Shown: one piece after another, positions 13,894-20,238 of the stretch
How the letters are laid out: each line of letters starts with the position of its first letter
How positions within the stretch are numbered: position 1 is the first letter of the stretch
From: Herbaspirillum hiltneri N3
GTDB lineage: Bacteria; Pseudomonadota; Gammaproteobacteria; Burkholderiales; Burkholderiaceae_D
Direction of reading: 5' to 3'
Length of the DNA: 64,000 nucleotides
Assembly (NCBI RefSeq): GCF_001267925.1
Contig: NZ_CP011409.1
Span: forward strand, 2,232,001 to 2,296,000
Notes under the pieces: generated by a model
What the model saw: only the letters and a program-made list of their open reading frames with translations
Database searches by the model: none
Told to the model about the DNA's origin: nothing
Position numbers and translations under genes: made by a program

Positions 13894-15075
13894 GTGGCCG
13901 AAGATAGCGATCAAGAACGGACCGAACAGCCCACCAGCAAACGCATTGAAAAAGCGCGTGAGCAGGGCGACGTGCCGCGCTCGCGCGAAATGGCTACGTG
14001 CGTCATGCTGCTCATCGGCGGCAGCACCCTGTGGATGTTTACCGGCCCGCTCGTGACCAGCCTCAACCGCTTCATGGTCTCCACCATGACGTTCGAGCGT
14101 GAAATGGCTTTCGATCCGGCCTTGCTGTTCGAACGCATGAGCGGTCATTTCATGGAAGTGGCGGTCGCCTGTATTCCCATCGCTTTCCTGATGACGCTGG
14201 CGGCCGTGGCCTCGCCGCTGATTCTGGGCGGCTGGCTGTTCAACGGCAGCTCGCTGGAACCCAAGTTCGACCGCCTCAACCCCATGAAGGGCATCATGAA
14301 CCTGTTCTCGCTCAATTCGCTGGTCGAGTTGGGCAAGGGCATTCTGAAGTCCGTCCTGGTCGGCGTCATCGCCTGGTTCGCCATGCGCAGCCATATCGAC
14401 GCGGTCCTCAACCTGAGCGTCGAGCCGCTCAAGGTGGCCAGCAGCCACATGCCGAATTTGCTGTGGACCTGCTTCATCATGATGGTCTGCGCCCTGATCG
14501 TGATTGCCGTGATCGACGTCCCGTATCAGCTGTGGAACTACACCCGCAAGCTCAAGATGACGCGCCAGGAAGTCAAGCAGGAACACAAGGAATCCGACGG
14601 CGACCCGTTGATCAAGGGCAAGATTCGCGCCCTGCAACGTGCCGCCGCACGCCGCCGCATGATGTCGTCGGTGCCCACGGCGGACGTCGTGGTGACCAAC
14701 CCGACCCACTTTGCCGTGGCGCTGAAGTACAGCGAAGGCGGCATGTCGGCGCCGCAGGTGGTGGCCAAGGGCACCGAAGCGGTGGCCGCCAACATCCGCA
14801 AGATCGCTGCGGAGAACAACGTACCGATCCTCGAAGCGCCGCCGCTGGCGCGCGCATTGCACTACCACACCGAAATCGGCGACGAGATTCCGGAATCGCT
14901 CTACACAGCGGTCGCTGAAGTCCTCGCCTATGTCTTCCAGCTGCGCACCTACAACAGCAATGGCGGCGTCCGTCCGGACGAGCCGAGCGAGCTCGAGGTG
15001 CCGAAGGAACTGGACGATCCACTGTACAAACGCAAGGCCGCCATGGCTGCCGCACAAGCTAGGGCCGGACAATGA
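13894..15075 (+). CDS. flhB: Flagellar export gate protein FlhB
   Basis: Inner-membrane component of the flagellar type III export gate that switches substrate specificity from rod/hook to filament. 393 aa with four hydrophobic segments in residues 35-215. The C-terminal cytoplasmic domain carries the autocleavage site NPTH at 269-272, followed by FAVALKYS. The GTG start at 13894 follows CGGGGGAACG; the N terminus AEDSDQERTEQPTSKRIEKAREQG is typical. Its stop overlaps the flhA start by 4 bp (ATGA). Confidence 0.97.
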   Translation: MAEDSDQERTEQPTSKRIEKAREQGDVPRSREMATCVMLLIGGSTLWMFTGPLVTSLNRFMVSTMTFEREMAFDPALLFERMSGHFMEVAVACIPIAFLMTLAAVASPLILGGWLFNGSSLEPKFDRLNPMKGIMNLFSLNSLVELGKGILKSVLVGVIAWFAMRSHIDAVLNLSVEPLKVASSHMPNLLWTCFIMMVCALIVIAVIDVPYQLWNYTRKLKMTRQEVKQEHKESDGDPLIKGKIRALQRAAARRRMMSSVPTADVVVTNPTHFAVALKYSEGGMSAPQVVAKGTEAVAANIRKIAAENNVPILEAPPLARALHYHTEIGDEIPESLYTAVAEVLAYVFQLRTYNSNGGVRPDEPSELEVPKELDDPLYKRKAAMAAAQARAGQ

Positions 15076-17162
15076 ACATCAACAGCATGAAACTCCCGGC
15101 CTGGGTGCCGATCAAGCATACCAAAGCGCTCGCAGCGCCGATCCTGATCGTCATGATGCTGGCGATGATGGTGCTGCCGCTGCCGGCGTTTGCGCTCGAC
15201 ATCCTGTTCAGCTTCAATATTTCGCTGTCGGTGATCGTGTTGCTGACCGCGCTGTACACCGTCAAGCCGCTCGACTTCGTGGCGTTCCCGGCGGTGCTGC
15301 TGGTGAGCACCATGCTGCGCCTGTCGCTCAACGTGGCATCCACCCGCGTGGTGCTGACCGAAGGCCATACCGGTCCCGACGCAGCGGGTAAGGTGATTGA
15401 GGCCTTCGGCCACTTCCTGATCGGCGGCAACTACACCGTCGGTATCGTCGTCTTCATCATTCTGACGATCATCAACTTCACCGTCGTCACCAAGGGTGCC
15501 GGCCGTATCGCCGAAGTGGGTGCACGCTTCACTCTCGATGCGATGCCCGGCAAGCAGATGGCGATCGACGCCGACCTCAACGCCGGCATGATCGGCGAGC
15601 CGGAAGCCCGCGCCCGCCGCAAGGAAGTGGCGCAGGAAGCCGAATTCTACGGCGCCATGGACGGCGCCAGCAAGTACGTGCGCGGCGATGCCGTGGCCGG
15701 CATTATCGTGACCGTGGTCAACATCGTCGGCGGTCTCGTGGTCGGCATGATCCAGCATGACCTGGCCTTCGACATGGCATTGAAGAACTACACGCTGCTG
15801 GCCATCGGTGACGGCCTGGTCGCACAGATTCCTTCGCTGATCATCTCCACCGCTGCAGGTGTGGTGGTCTCGCGCGTCGCCAACGATCAGGACGTCGGCG
15901 GCCAACTGATCAACCAGCTGTTCGCCAAGCCGGAAGTCCTGTACCTGACCGCCATCATCATCGGCGGCATGGGCCTGATCCCGGGCATGCCGCATGTTGC
16001 GTTCATCATCATTGCCGCCATGCTGGCCGGCGCCGGTTATTCCGTCAGCCAGCGTAAGCAGCAGGCCGGCGCGATCGCCGAATTGCCGGCCCCCGTCACG
16101 ACGCCGCAGGAAATCGAGGAAGCCACCTGGCAGGACATCTTGCCGGTCGACACGCTCGGTCTGGAAGTCGGTTACCGCCTCATCCCGCTGGTGGACAAAG
16201 GGCAGGGCGGCGAACTGCTGCGCCGGATCAAAGGCATCCGCAAGAAATTCGCGCAGGAAGTCGGCTTCCTGTCGCCGCCGGTACATATCCGCGACAACCT
16301 CGAACTCAAGCCGTCGGCCTATCGCATCGCCTTGAAGGGCGTGGAAATCGGCAAGGGCGAAGCCACTTTCGGCCAGTTCCTGGCGATCAATCCGGGCATG
16401 GTCACCGGCCCGTTGCCAGGGCTCATGACCACCGACCCTGCGTTCGGCCTGCCGGCTGTCTGGATCGAAAGCAACATGCGCGAAATGGCGCAGACCATGG
16501 GCTACACCGTGGTCGATACCGGCACCGTCATTGCGACCCACCTCAACCATTTGATCACCATCCACGCAGCGGAATTGCTGGGGCGCCAGGAAGTGCAGCA
16601 ATTGCTCGATCACATCGGCAAGGATGCGCCGAAGCTGATCGAAGATCTGGTGCCGAAAGCCTTGCCGTTGGGCACGGTCCAGAAAGTGTTGCAAAACCTG
16701 CTCATCGAAGGCGTGCATATCCGCGATATGCGGACTATTATCGAAACCCTGGCCGAGCATGCGCCGCGCGTGCAGGAGCCGAACGAACTGACCGCCATCG
16801 TGCGCATTGCCCTGGGCCGCGCGATCGTGCAACAGATTTTCCCGACCGAGAGCGAGCTGTCGGTCATGACACTGGACACCAAGCTGGAGCGTCTGCTGAT
16901 GCAGGCGATGCAGGCCAGCGGACCGGAAGGCGGCGGCATCGAGCCCGGTCTGGCAGATACGCTGATTACTCAGACAGAAAACGCAGCACGTCATCAAGAG
17001 CAGTTGGGTTTAACCCCGGTATTGTTGGTCCCGGGTCCTTTGCGGGCATTGCTGGCGCGCTTCTTGCGACGCGCAATGCCTCAACTCCGGGTGCTTTCAC
17101 ACGCTGAAGTTCCTGATTCGAAAACGATTAAAGTTACCAGCCTAGTTGGAGGGCAAGCATGA
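15072..17162 (+). CDS. flhA: Flagellar export gate protein FlhA
   Basis: Large export-gate subunit that forms the nonameric ring receiving chaperone-substrate complexes. 696 aa, normal length. The N-terminal half has about eight membrane segments; the conserved FHIPEP loop reads RFTLDAMPGKQMAIDADLNAG near residues 162-182. The cytoplasmic half begins near residue 350 (QEIEEATWQDILPVDTLGLEVG). It overlaps flhB by 4 bp and flhF by 4 bp, so the three are translationally coupled. Confidence 0.97.
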   Translation: MNINSMKLPAWVPIKHTKALAAPILIVMMLAMMVLPLPAFALDILFSFNISLSVIVLLTALYTVKPLDFVAFPAVLLVSTMLRLSLNVASTRVVLTEGHTGPDAAGKVIEAFGHFLIGGNYTVGIVVFIILTIINFTVVTKGAGRIAEVGARFTLDAMPGKQMAIDADLNAGMIGEPEARARRKEVAQEAEFYGAMDGASKYVRGDAVAGIIVTVVNIVGGLVVGMIQHDLAFDMALKNYTLLAIGDGLVAQIPSLIISTAAGVVVSRVANDQDVGGQLINQLFAKPEVLYLTAIIIGGMGLIPGMPHVAFIIIAAMLAGAGYSVSQRKQQAGAIAELPAPVTTPQEIEEATWQDILPVDTLGLEVGYRLIPLVDKGQGGELLRRIKGIRKKFAQEVGFLSPPVHIRDNLELKPSAYRIALKGVEIGKGEATFGQFLAINPGMVTGPLPGLMTTDPAFGLPAVWIESNMREMAQTMGYTVVDTGTVIATHLNHLITIHAAELLGRQEVQQLLDHIGKDAPKLIEDLVPKALPLGTVQKVLQNLLIEGVHIRDMRTIIETLAEHAPRVQEPNELTAIVRIALGRAIVQQIFPTESELSVMTLDTKLERLLMQAMQASGPEGGGIEPGLADTLITQTENAARHQEQLGLTPVLLVPGPLRALLARFLRRAMPQLRVLSHAEVPDSKTIKVTSLVGGQA

Positions 17163-18616
17163 ACGTCAAAAAATTTATAGCAGGGTCGTCGCGAGACGCA
17201 TGGCGCCAGGTGCGCGAAGCGCTGGGTCCTGACGCCGTCATTCTCTCCAACCGGAATATCGACGACGGTGTCGAGATCCTGGCCATGGCAAACGAAGACA
17301 TGTCGTCGCTGGTGGTGCCGGCCATGTCCAAGGATGCCATGCCGCGTCCGGCCGTGCGCCGACCGCCTGCCCAGCCTGCATCGCTGCAGGCCGCCGTGCC
17401 GCGCACGCGCGTTGAACCACAACAGCAGCAGCAACCGCCCGGTGCATCCATGCCGGTCGAACACAATACCGCGCAAGCCGATGCCCGTGTCTGGCGTACG
17501 CGCAATGCCGCACGCGCCAGCGCCAAGGAACAGCAGGCACAAGCGCTGACGCCGGCACAAGTGGCCGCGGGACCTAAGGCTGCCGCAGCGACGCGTCCGC
17601 AACAGGCCGGTGTCATGGCTGAGTTCGACGGCAAGGACTACGACGAGATCCTGTCCGACGTCATGACCGAAATCCGCTCCATGCGCGGCGTGCTGGAAAC
17701 TCAGCTGGCGGAAATCTCCTGGGGCGGCACGCAAAAGCGCGAACCGGCCAAGGCCGCGATCATGCGCGAAATGCTGGCCGCCGGTTTCAGCGCCAGCCTG
17801 TCGCGCCTGATCACCGAGAATCTGCCGCAAAGCCCGAAATCTCAGGACGCCATGTTCTGGGTCAAGTCGGTGCTGGCCAAGAATCTGATGACCATGGCCA
17901 ACGAAAACGAATTGCTGGAAGAGGGCGGCGTCTACGCGCTGGTCGGCCCGACCGGTGTTGGCAAAACGACCACGACCGCGAAACTGGCGGCGCGTTGCGT
18001 GATGCGCCACGGCCCGGGCAAGCTGGCGTTGATCACCACCGACGGCTACCGTATCGGCGGCTACGAACAACTGCGCATTTACGGCAAGATTCTCGGCGTG
18101 ATGGTGCACTCGGTGAAAGATGAATCCGATTTGCGTATCGCCCTCGACGAACTGCGCGGCAAACATACTGTCCTAATCGATACCGCCGGCATGGGCCAGC
18201 GCGACCAGATGGTGGCCGAACAGGCTGCGATGCTGTCCGGCGCAGGCACCGACATCAAGCGCCTGTTGTGCCTCAATGCAACGGCCACCGGCGGCACGCT
18301 CAATGAAGTCGTGAGCGCGTATTCGGGCGACGGCCTGGCGGGTTGCATCATTACCAAGCTCGACGAAGCAGCCACCATCGGTAATGTGCTCGATGTTGTC
18401 ATCCGTCAGAAACTGAATCTGTATTACGTCGCAAACGGTCAGCGCGTGCCGGAAGATTTGCATGTTGCCAACAGGTTGTATCTGGCCGACCGCGCCTTTA
18501 AACTGAAGCGTGAAACTGCGCCGTTCGAATTCCAGGATGCCGAGTTGCCGGTCGTGGTCGGGCCGACGGCCACGGCCATGAATGACAAAAGCCTGCGGGA
18601 GGTGATCCTTGGCTAG
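17159..18616 (+). CDS. flhF: SRP-type GTPase FlhF
   Basis: Signal-recognition-particle-like GTPase that places and numbers polar flagella. 485 aa. A basic N terminus (MNVKKFIAGSSRDAWRQVREALGPDAVILS) is followed by a Gln/Ala-rich linker (about 60-160) and the NG domain. Walker A is GPTGVGKT at 263-270, the G3 motif DTAGM at 341-345 and the G4 motif TKLDE near 399. All GTPase motifs are intact. It overlaps flhA by 4 bp and flhG by 8 bp. Confidence 0.96.
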   Translation: MNVKKFIAGSSRDAWRQVREALGPDAVILSNRNIDDGVEILAMANEDMSSLVVPAMSKDAMPRPAVRRPPAQPASLQAAVPRTRVEPQQQQQPPGASMPVEHNTAQADARVWRTRNAARASAKEQQAQALTPAQVAAGPKAAAATRPQQAGVMAEFDGKDYDEILSDVMTEIRSMRGVLETQLAEISWGGTQKREPAKAAIMREMLAAGFSASLSRLITENLPQSPKSQDAMFWVKSVLAKNLMTMANENELLEEGGVYALVGPTGVGKTTTTAKLAARCVMRHGPGKLALITTDGYRIGGYEQLRIYGKILGVMVHSVKDESDLRIALDELRGKHTVLIDTAGMGQRDQMVAEQAAMLSGAGTDIKRLLCLNATATGGTLNEVVSAYSGDGLAGCIITKLDEAATIGNVLDVVIRQKLNLYYVANGQRVPEDLHVANRLYLADRAFKLKRETAPFEFQDAELPVVVGPTATAMNDKSLREVILG

Positions 18617-19448
18617 CTATGACGTTGATCAAGCGGAAGGACTGCGACGGATGCTGGAGCGTCCGACGCCGCGCGTATTCACTTTCTTCTCGGTTCTGCC
18701 CGACGAGGAAAAAGGCGCGATGCTGATCAATCTGGCTGCCTCTCTTGCCGCCGCCGACCACAACGCATTGTTGGTCGACGCTTGCATGACGCCTTCGGTG
18801 ATCTTGTCGCGTTTCGGCGGTGTCGCCGTGGCGACGCTGCTCGATGTTGCACGCCAGGAGCGGCAACTGGACGAAGCGGTGCGCATGGTGCCGGAAGGTT
18901 TTGCGCTGGCGCGGCTGTCGCGCAAGAACGTCTCGGCTTCCACGCATCCGCAAGCCTCCCGGCTGGCGCAGATTTTTGACGGACTGACGGAAGAGTCCGA
19001 CATCACCCTCATCAACGGTGAACTGAACGACGACGAACTGTTGCCGGTGCCGGCCATGGAAATGGGCGAAATCGTGGTGCACATGTCGACCAGCCCGACC
19101 TCGATCAAGGCGGCGTACGTCTTGCTCAAGGGCCTCAGCGACAAGCTCGGCCGCCGTCCTTTCAACCTCCTCGTGAGCGGTGGTTCGGACGCGGATGCAC
19201 AGATGGTGTATGCCAACATGGCGCAGGCCGCCAATCGTTACCTGGCGGCGCAATTGCATTTCATGGGTTCTATCCCGGCCGACGAACACATCCGTCGCGC
19301 ATCGGGGCAGGGCCGCACCGTGCTGGAAGCATTTCCATTGGCGGGTGCGACGCTGGCATTCAAGCGCCTGGCGGATCAGTTTTCGTTATCCAATCTCACC
19401 AAGGGCACGTACGGTATGGCGACCGATGGAGCAAGTCTCGGAGTATGA
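18609..19448 (+). CDS. flhG: FlhG/FleN-type protein with a degenerate nucleotide-binding site
   Basis: 279 aa, from a TTG start at 18609 overlapping the end of flhF. Active FlhG is a MinD-like ATPase that limits flagellar number and stimulates FlhF. The N-terminal helix DQAEGLRRML (residues 7-16) matches the FlhF-activating motif. The deviant Walker A, expected as SGKGGVGKTN, reads SVLPDEEKGA (28-37): all glycines and the signature lysine are lost and only Lys35 remains. The following NLAASLA and LLVDA keep the ParA/MinD pattern, but the second Asp is Cys (DACM) and the switch II DTGAG equivalent reads INGELN. It is probably a pseudo-ATPase. Confidence 0.85.
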   Translation: MASYDVDQAEGLRRMLERPTPRVFTFFSVLPDEEKGAMLINLAASLAAADHNALLVDACMTPSVILSRFGGVAVATLLDVARQERQLDEAVRMVPEGFALARLSRKNVSASTHPQASRLAQIFDGLTEESDITLINGELNDDELLPVPAMEMGEIVVHMSTSPTSIKAAYVLLKGLSDKLGRRPFNLLVSGGSDADAQMVYANMAQAANRYLAAQLHFMGSIPADEHIRRASGQGRTVLEAFPLAGATLAFKRLADQFSLSNLTKGTYGMATDGASLGV

Positions 19449-19494: not shown

Positions 19495-20238
19495 ATGAGT
19501 TCTATGTATAACGTCAAAGGAAAGACGGCCAAGAACGGTTTGCTCGAGCTGCATGCGGCGCTTGTGAAAAAGCTGGCGCATCAGATGAAGGCAAAGCTTC
19601 CGCCCAGCGTGGAAGTGGACGACTTGATTCAGGCAGGCATGATCGGTCTGCTTGATGCCGTCAATCGCTATGAGGAAACGCACGGCGCACAGTTTGAAAC
19701 CTATGCCGTGCAGCGTATCCGCGGCGCCATGCTGGACGAATTGCGCAGCAGCGACTGGCTGCCGCGCAGCATCCGCCAGAACACCCGCAAGATCGAAGAG
19801 GCCATCCATGTCCTGCTGCAGCAGCTCGGCCGTCCGCCGCAGGAGACCGAAGTCGCCACGCAGCTCAAGATGAGCCTGCTGGAATACCAGGACATGCTGA
19901 CCGAATGCGGCGGCCATCAACTGATTTACTACGAAGATTTCCATGACGCCGACGGCGGCCACGAGCATTTCCTCGATCGCTACCAGACCAGCGATACCGA
20001 TGACCCTTTGCAGAACCTGATCAACGGCGGTTTCCGCGAGGCCGTCATCGATTCGATCAAGGCCTTGCCCGAGCGTGAAAAGATTCTGATGGGCCTGTAC
20101 TACGAACAGGAAATGAACTTGAAGGAAATCGGCGCCGTCATGGGCGTCTCCGAGTCGCGGGTTTGCCAGCTGCACAGCCAGGCCATCGCCCGCATGCGCT
20201 CGACCTTGAGGGAGCAGGCGTGGACTGGAGTAGCGTAG
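19495..20238 (+). CDS. fliA: Flagellar RNA polymerase sigma factor FliA (sigma-28)
   Basis: Directs transcription of late flagellar and chemotaxis genes; inhibited by FlgM. 247 aa. Region 2 reads VEVDDLIQAGMIGLLDAVNRYE and FETYAVQRIRGAMLDELRSSDWLPRS; region 4 reads LPEREKILMGLYYEQEMNLKEIGAVMGVSESRVCQLHSQAIARMR. The start at 19495 (MSSMYNVKG) aligns with the E. coli start MNSLYTAEG; an ATG at 19504 is an alternative. Its 3' end overlaps motC by 19 bp. Candidate target promoters in this window precede flgM, flgK, fliC, the mcp gene and an unknown gene at 5752. Confidence 0.97.
   Translation: MSSMYNVKGKTAKNGLLELHAALVKKLAHQMKAKLPPSVEVDDLIQAGMIGLLDAVNRYEETHGAQFETYAVQRIRGAMLDELRSSDWLPRSIRQNTRKIEEAIHVLLQQLGRPPQETEVATQLKMSLLEYQDMLTECGGHQLIYYEDFHDADGGHEHFLDRYQTSDTDDPLQNLINGGFREAVIDSIKALPEREKILMGLYYEQEMNLKEIGAVMGVSESRVCQLHSQAIARMRSTLREQAWTGVA

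Follow-up and report, generated by a model that had tools for sequence, protein, structure and literature searches.

FlhG (also FleN or YlxH) is a MinD-like ATPase of polar flagellates and Bacillus that determines the number of flagella. The canonical protein inhibits the master regulator FleQ/FlrA, in Pseudomonas aeruginosa by means of ATP-driven dimers (available parts of PMC7226244, PMC10723142 and PMC12826062); Walker A mutants of Vibrio alginolyticus FlhG lose function and are hyperflagellated (PMC7226244, in part), and a 2025 review calls FlhG 'the ATPase' of the FlhF-FlhG switch, the available part of it making no mention of an ATPase-dead FlhG (PMC12826062). We found no report of a P-loop-less FlhG in the open-licence literature searched, including the accessible parts of PMC12826062, PMC3885665, PMC4905959, PMC7064773, PMC7226244, PMC10723142, PMC7439463 and PMC10241942. 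Here we describe such a protein, encoded by flhG in a window of 64,000 nucleotides (the whole stretch of DNA analysed) from Herbaspirillum hiltneri N3. The absence of ATP-site motifs and C-terminal membrane helix is shared by most of the order to which this organism belongs, a GTDB order that we take to be the former Betaproteobacteria; the system is a known one, here in a variant that spans the lineage. The gene and the sites that define its state are:

18609..19448, + strand: flhG, TTG start, 279 amino acids (aa), FleN/FlhG fold without a P-loop, in the flhF–fliA interval.
18627..18647, + strand: DQAEGLR, residues 7-13, motif of the FlhF-activating 'enhancer helix', supported by conservation counts.
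18690..18719, + strand: Walker A equivalent SVLPDEEKGA, residues 28-37, with no P-loop according to alignments and the predicted model.
18777..18785, + strand: Walker A' equivalent D57-A58-C59, without the second (catalytic) Asp.
19014..19028, + strand: switch II equivalent N136-G-E-L-N140, canonically DTAAG, placed by alignments.

A sequence-only reading of this stretch had reported SVLPDEEKGA in place of the deviant Walker A motif, a Cys for the second Asp of Walker A' and INGELN at switch II, and all three assignments hold. In our alignments the P-loop proper, GKGGVGKT in canonical FlhG, falls on residues 29-36 (VLPDEEKG), so that Lys35 alone matches the Walker A lysine; the second Walker A' Asp is Cys59 of DACM (57-60), and the switch II Asp is Asn136 of INGELN (135-140). 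The column of the MinD signature lysine holds Leu30, and the deviant Walker A that marks the MinD/ParA ATPases, GKGGxGK[ST] in FlhG, is absent; the Pfam CbiA family matches only at E 0.17, below the cut-off. Judged by sequence, the window protein is FlhG by descent and place only and stands outside the ATPase family by which FlhG is defined, because VLPDEEKG occupies the ATP site and Cys replaces the catalytic Asp. It shares the SIMIBI fold with MinD/ParA, but of their ATP site only Lys35 and Asp57 remain. Compared with FlhG/FleN/YlxH, it lacks the deviant Walker A, the catalytic Asp and the C-terminal membrane helix and carries Asn at switch II, and the usual partner FleQ/FlrA has no strong domain match in the 160 order genomes searched.

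Predicted structures point the same way. In the model of the window protein strand 1 ends at residue 28, a loop spans residues 29-31 and helix alpha1 begins at residue 32, while in a control model (P0311, Sulfurimicrobium lacus, GK[ST] kept) the strand covers 22-28, the loop 29-34, and the helix begins at Lys35. The phosphate-wrapping loop is therefore predicted to be replaced by extra helix, within a predicted fold that is still that of MinD/FleN. Alignments and model together strongly support the view that this FlhG is a putative pseudo-ATPase. The earlier proposal of a pseudo-ATPase with its FlhF-activating helix thus stands on sequence and predicted structure, but not as a peculiarity of one organism, since the state covers most of the order.

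Within the family, a search gave matches in 168 of 195 genomes, and 96 FlhG rows from part of these were read (weak matches in G156, G167, G178 and G189, genus code g5, lie outside them). GK[ST] is absent from 92 of the 96, and all 92 keep the DQA helix, with D7, Q8, A9, L12 and R13 each present in every one. This set consists of loci L001-L101 minus L090, L091, L094 and L097 (canonical, without the helix), L096 (no open reading frame (ORF) match) and L098-L101 (paralogues); it holds 90 distinct sequences, including the window's own gene (L001), and flhF adjoins 91 of the rows (not L082; weak in L083-L089). The remaining four of the 96 read SGKGGVGKT, lack the helix, belong to g5 and have a divergent FlhF-like gene and another fliA as neighbours. 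Slightly varied forms of the P-loop-less motif occur in eight named relatives (seven Herbaspirillum, one Duganella metagenome-assembled genome) and in the other helix-bearing FlhG rows of Herbaspirillum. Some Herbaspirillum-type FlhGs (L012, L013, L017-L020) keep an Asp at the catalytic position (VVDGD) though the P-loop is gone.

The two commonest degenerate loops among the 92 are an acidic stretch with a Lys (Herbaspirillum, Noviherbaspirillum) and GxxPxVGVTS (Collimonas, Herminiimonas, Paraherbaspirillum). A query of the second type also matches Variovorax, Rhodoferax and Polaromonas, and GK[ST] occurs in none of the best 120 of its 411 matches. These Collimonas/Variovorax/Polaromonas-type proteins (GxxPxVGVTS, GATS and others) resemble the window protein in having lost the Walker A lysine and kept the helix (DQADGLR in theirs), but differ in their degenerate motif, which retains remnant loop glycines.

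For the order as a whole, 160 genomes were searched with FlhF, which made the sampling independent of the state of FlhG. FlhF was found at E <= 1e-25 in 110 genomes, and 108 of these loci have FlhG downstream. Two loci with family code f4 (L174 in G287, L197 in G321) have flhF with no recognisable flhG downstream. Two others, of code f19 (L123 in G331, L141 in G212), have an flhG frame that looks split or frameshifted, matched only on a 133-aa ORF; these short ORFs were dropped, leaving 106 complete FlhGs from 40 GTDB family codes. Only one of the 106, each beside a typical FlhF, has GKxxxGK[ST]. The shorter GK[ST] is kept in 23, from 11 family codes, with none in the other 29 codes (the pattern matched 24 rows, of which L163 was a false match). 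The strict DQAxxLR motif is present in 102 of the 106 and Gln8 in all of them, while the signature lysine column holds Lys in just seven.

The order forms one side of a branch in the FlhF tree (Shimodaira-Hasegawa-like approximate likelihood ratio test 99; a quick method, with some long branches). When Walker A loss is mapped on this tree, as had been proposed, GK[ST] requires at least nine changes (losses or regains), or 17 losses if regain is barred. Even the P-loop keepers are altered: their signature lysine column is Arg in 14 of 23 and Lys in two, and the catalytic second Asp occurs in none of them and in six of the 83 losers, against 62/62 outside the order. The named keepers, Sulfuricella and Sulfurimicrobium, resemble the window protein in carrying DQAxxLR and in having lost both the signature lysine (the consensus of 18 has Arg) and the catalytic Asp; unlike it they retain GK[ST] and are predicted to form a C-terminal helix, an intermediate state.

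In the rest of the class the picture is reversed. After a search of 140 genomes, 66 FlhF-bearing ones lie outside the order, and 64 of these loci were read (not G393 and G485); 63 carry FlhG (L275 has none), and column counts were made on 62, omitting the truncated L269. GKGGxGK[ST] is present in 62 of the 63, the exception being the truncated ORF, whereas strict DQAxxLR is found in only 37, the other 26 of these 63 gammaproteobacterial FlhGs (loci L212-L276) being without it, and Gln8 is kept in 46/62. The order and the rest of the class thus conserve opposite ends of FlhG, one the mirror image of the other.

The helix at the N-terminus and a patch in the C-terminal half are the parts of the window protein that persist; the C-terminal tail is not. 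The sites concerned are:

19101..19130, + strand: S165-I166-K-A-A-Y170-...-K174, helix alpha6, with K174 aligned to Lys177 of Geobacillus FlhG.
19239..19241, + strand: Y211, aligned to Phe215 of Geobacillus FlhG.
19392..19445, + strand: C-terminal tail, residues 262-279, lacking the amphipathic membrane helix that canonical FlhG has.

K174 is found in 62/62 rows outside the order, in 101/106 within it (the rest Arg) and in 89/92 of the family; an F or Y at position 211 is found in 62/62, 83/106 and 92/92, respectively. Y170, K174, G220, P223 and D225 are all strongly conserved. In the 4rz3 chain sequence the phmmer alignment pairs K174 with Lys185 and Y211 with Phe223, which are Lys177 and Phe215 in the numbering of that entry if an inferred offset of eight holds. 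Binding of FliM/FliY of the C-ring, and of FlrA, is ascribed to Lys177 and Phe215 of Geobacillus FlhG; a search for such a role of K177/F215 gave no paper in the open-licence literature.

The tail, residues 262-279, is modelled with a predicted local distance difference test score below 50 and no predicted helix past residue 263, whereas the control model has a helix at 274-290; neither motif nor predicted helix for membrane targeting was found in the window protein. The C-terminal helix motif occurs in 53/63 rows outside the order and in 1/92 of the family; within the order it accompanies 20/23 P-loop keepers and 26/83 losers (Fisher p 2e-6). A first, stricter motif matched only 4/106 order rows and the looser pattern was chosen after the tails had been inspected, so that these counts are descriptive only.

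The ratio of nonsynonymous to synonymous substitution rates (dN/dS) of flhG is 0.03-0.24 against 13 relatives, similar to that of flhF (0.04-0.22), with dS above 1 in several pairs; flhG is under purifying selection, with the helix and the alpha6/alpha7 patch retained. The statements that the N-terminal activating helix is intact and that the adjoining FlhF keeps its GTPase motifs were both correct: DQAEGLR is present at residues 7-13, and the FlhF translation carries GPTGVGKTTT, DTAG and TKLD and scores 281.7 bits against the TIGR03499 FlhF model (cut-off 174).

On this evidence we consider it quite probable that the window protein is an ATP-independent activator of FlhF, derived from an FlhG in which the MinD-type ATPase decayed and left a scaffold that may bind the C-ring. 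We infer that ATP binding is absent and that FlhF activation and C-ring docking are retained. The Gln of the N-terminal DQAxxLR helix would enter the FlhF GTP homodimer and bring about GTP hydrolysis, as in canonical FlhG, and the alpha6/alpha7 patch (Y170, K174, aromatic 211) would be the docking site for a flagellar partner, the likeliest being the C-ring protein FliM. FlhF would be switched off when or where C-ring proteins recruit FlhG, or simply by FlhG dosage; ATP-driven dimerisation, membrane cycling and FleQ/FlrA repression would not be involved. On the sequence-only reading, activation of FlhF would be constitutive and flagellar number would escape the FlhG ATP cycle. The retention of the C-ring-binding residues suggests, from sequence, that FlhG may be gated by assembly rather than simply always on. 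Since Walker A mutants of V. alginolyticus lose function and are hyperflagellated, such bacteria probably use other means of flagellar number control.

The MinD signature lysine and the catalytic Asp were probably the first to go, close to the base of the order, at a point where FleQ is also missing, and ATPase loss would then have continued in many separate lineages. The FleQ domain PF06490 gives only weak matches in the order (17/160 genomes, best 5.8e-9; in the window genome 2.0e-6, in a 719-aa frame), while 55 of the 66 FlhF-bearing genomes outside it are matched, 49 of them more strongly than the order's best. This pattern would fit a loss of the FleQ arm before or together with the decay of the ATPase. 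More tentatively, and at somewhat less than an even chance, FlhG may throughout the Betaproteobacteria be a nucleotide-free FlhF activator that reads C-ring assembly, its modules evolving oppositely in sister groups: the helix would be retained and the ATPase lost in betaproteobacteria, while in other gammaproteobacteria the ATPase would be retained and the helix often lost.

Several points weigh against the idea of an ATP-independent activator and the history we propose for it. In the 92 family rows, residue 35 is K or R in 80 and Asp57 is invariant, so that some unusual nucleotide binding is possible. A scaffold inactive towards FlhF would equally keep the fold. The order counts cover FlhG beside FlhF at E <= 1e-25 and not FlhG beside a divergent FlhF, and canonical helix-less FlhGs do exist in second flagellar loci, in at least 2/160 order genomes and in four family loci. 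The association of P-loop and C-terminal helix is not independent of descent, with too few independent pairs on the tree, and the split between order and non-order (beta/gamma) is a single event. V. alginolyticus FlhG, once purified, remained a monomer in the presence of ATP (PMC7226244, in part), and FleQ could still be co-purified with P. aeruginosa FleN K19A (PMC10723142, in part); canonical FlhG/FleN may for this reason work partly without ATP dimers. Ten FlhF-bearing gammaproteobacteria with no PF06490 match keep their P-loop, and FlhC (E < 1e-60), present in 49 of the 110 FlhF-bearing order genomes, accompanies 37 lost and 8 kept P-loops, compared with 46 lost and 15 kept in its absence.

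Two candidate causes of the loss were rejected on these last counts. The ten P-loop-keeping gammaproteobacteria speak against FleQ loss as a sufficient cause; FleQ absence alone therefore fails to explain ATPase loss. A replacement of FleQ by FlhDC fails as well, as the presence of FlhC does not track P-loop loss in the order.

Among other explanations, the one that survives best, unlikely as we judge it, is that the altered site still binds nucleotide through Lys35 and Asp57 (and Asp136 in relatives) and switches by binding without hydrolysis. The persistence of K/R35 and Asp57 noted above would fit this, as would Asp136 in 67/92 family rows, and Vibrio FlhG with the catalytic mutation D60A retains ATP binding and is impaired only slightly (PMC7226244, in part), so that hydrolysis may be dispensable. 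However, the loop glycines are gone, the predicted helix fills the phosphate site when the window and control models are compared, Asp136 is Asn in the window protein, and residue 35 is Lys in just 7/83 P-loop losers of the order.

A slightly less likely alternative is relaxed constraint, in which FlhG would be vestigial, only its N-terminal peptide being needed and the rest serving folding or stability. The many separate losses on the FlhF tree and the contrast within the order between an invariant Q8 and freely varying ATPase residues are what such a protein would be expected to leave behind. Yet the five conserved residues of the C-terminal half, the dN/dS similar to that of flhF and the partial conservation of the replacement motif in the family (K/R35 as above, Met38 in 58/92) are at odds with it.

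An ATP switch provided in trans, through pairing of the P-loop-less FlhG with MinD or a ParA, is very unlikely. A canonical FlhG query at E <= 10 gave six matches in this genome: flhG itself, MinD, ApbC/Mrp, a protein of tyrosine-autokinase type and two ParA-like proteins. MinD (intact; L278), ApbC and the two ParA-like proteins have intact P-loops and could in principle serve, and E. coli MinD influences flagellar genes (PMC12826062, in part). Against this, the dimer face formed by the signature lysine and the catalytic Asp is gone from FlhG, and the genes of the MinD, ApbC and ParA-like proteins lie far from flhG. The genome has a single flhF at E <= 1e-25. A second intact FlhG, which the sequence-only reading had raised as a possibility, was found neither among the six matches nor with a canonical second-locus FlhG query at E <= 1e-20.

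A sequencing error or pseudogene in this genome is refuted by the occurrence of the motif in the eight relatives, which come from separate records, by the low dN/dS and by the absence of GK[ST] from 92/92 helix-bearing family rows.

If the switch indeed works without ATP in most of a proteobacterial order, FlhG does not depend on the ATP cycle, and its two jobs, activation of FlhF and restraint of the master regulator, would become separable by comparing natural proteins. The natural P-loop-less FlhGs would allow the ATP requirement of each FlhG function to be tested directly. They would also be relevant to the control of flagellar number in such bacteria, possibly including Burkholderia cenocepacia, where flagellar number is variable and FlhF overproduction lowers flagellation rather than raising it (PMC4905959, in part).

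The window flhG lies directly 3' of flhF in a flagellar operon, with its start overlapping the end of flhF by 8 nt, and the gene order is the same in relatives. The neighbouring genes are:

17159..18616, + strand: flhF, the partner signal recognition particle-type GTPase, GTPase motifs intact.
19495..20238, + strand: fliA, flagellar sigma factor directly 3' of flhG, with Sigma70 regions 2, 3 and 4 matched.
15072..17162, + strand: flhA, named from its translation.
13894..15075, + strand: flhB, named from its translation.

The second flagellar locus type is found in six genomes, L097:72-2985 (G135), L090 (G145), L091 (G122), L094 (G047), L283 (G292) and L284 (G328), and combines a GKGGVGKT FlhG without the DQA helix with divergent FlhF-like and fliA-like genes. 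The last two came from a query with a canonical second-locus FlhG in the 160 order genomes and are a lower bound, as a partial match (G200:C13) lies outside the rows read. Six order genomes (L291, L293, L300-L303) also encode another MinD-like protein, which carries SGKGGVGK[ST]F, in a stretch without flhF or fliA. In G047, G122 and G145 (g5) the canonical FlhG is the sole match; G292 has a P-loop-less FlhG besides the canonical one, and G135 (g5) holds both kinds, one P-loop-less with the helix (L042/L081) and one canonical without it (L097).

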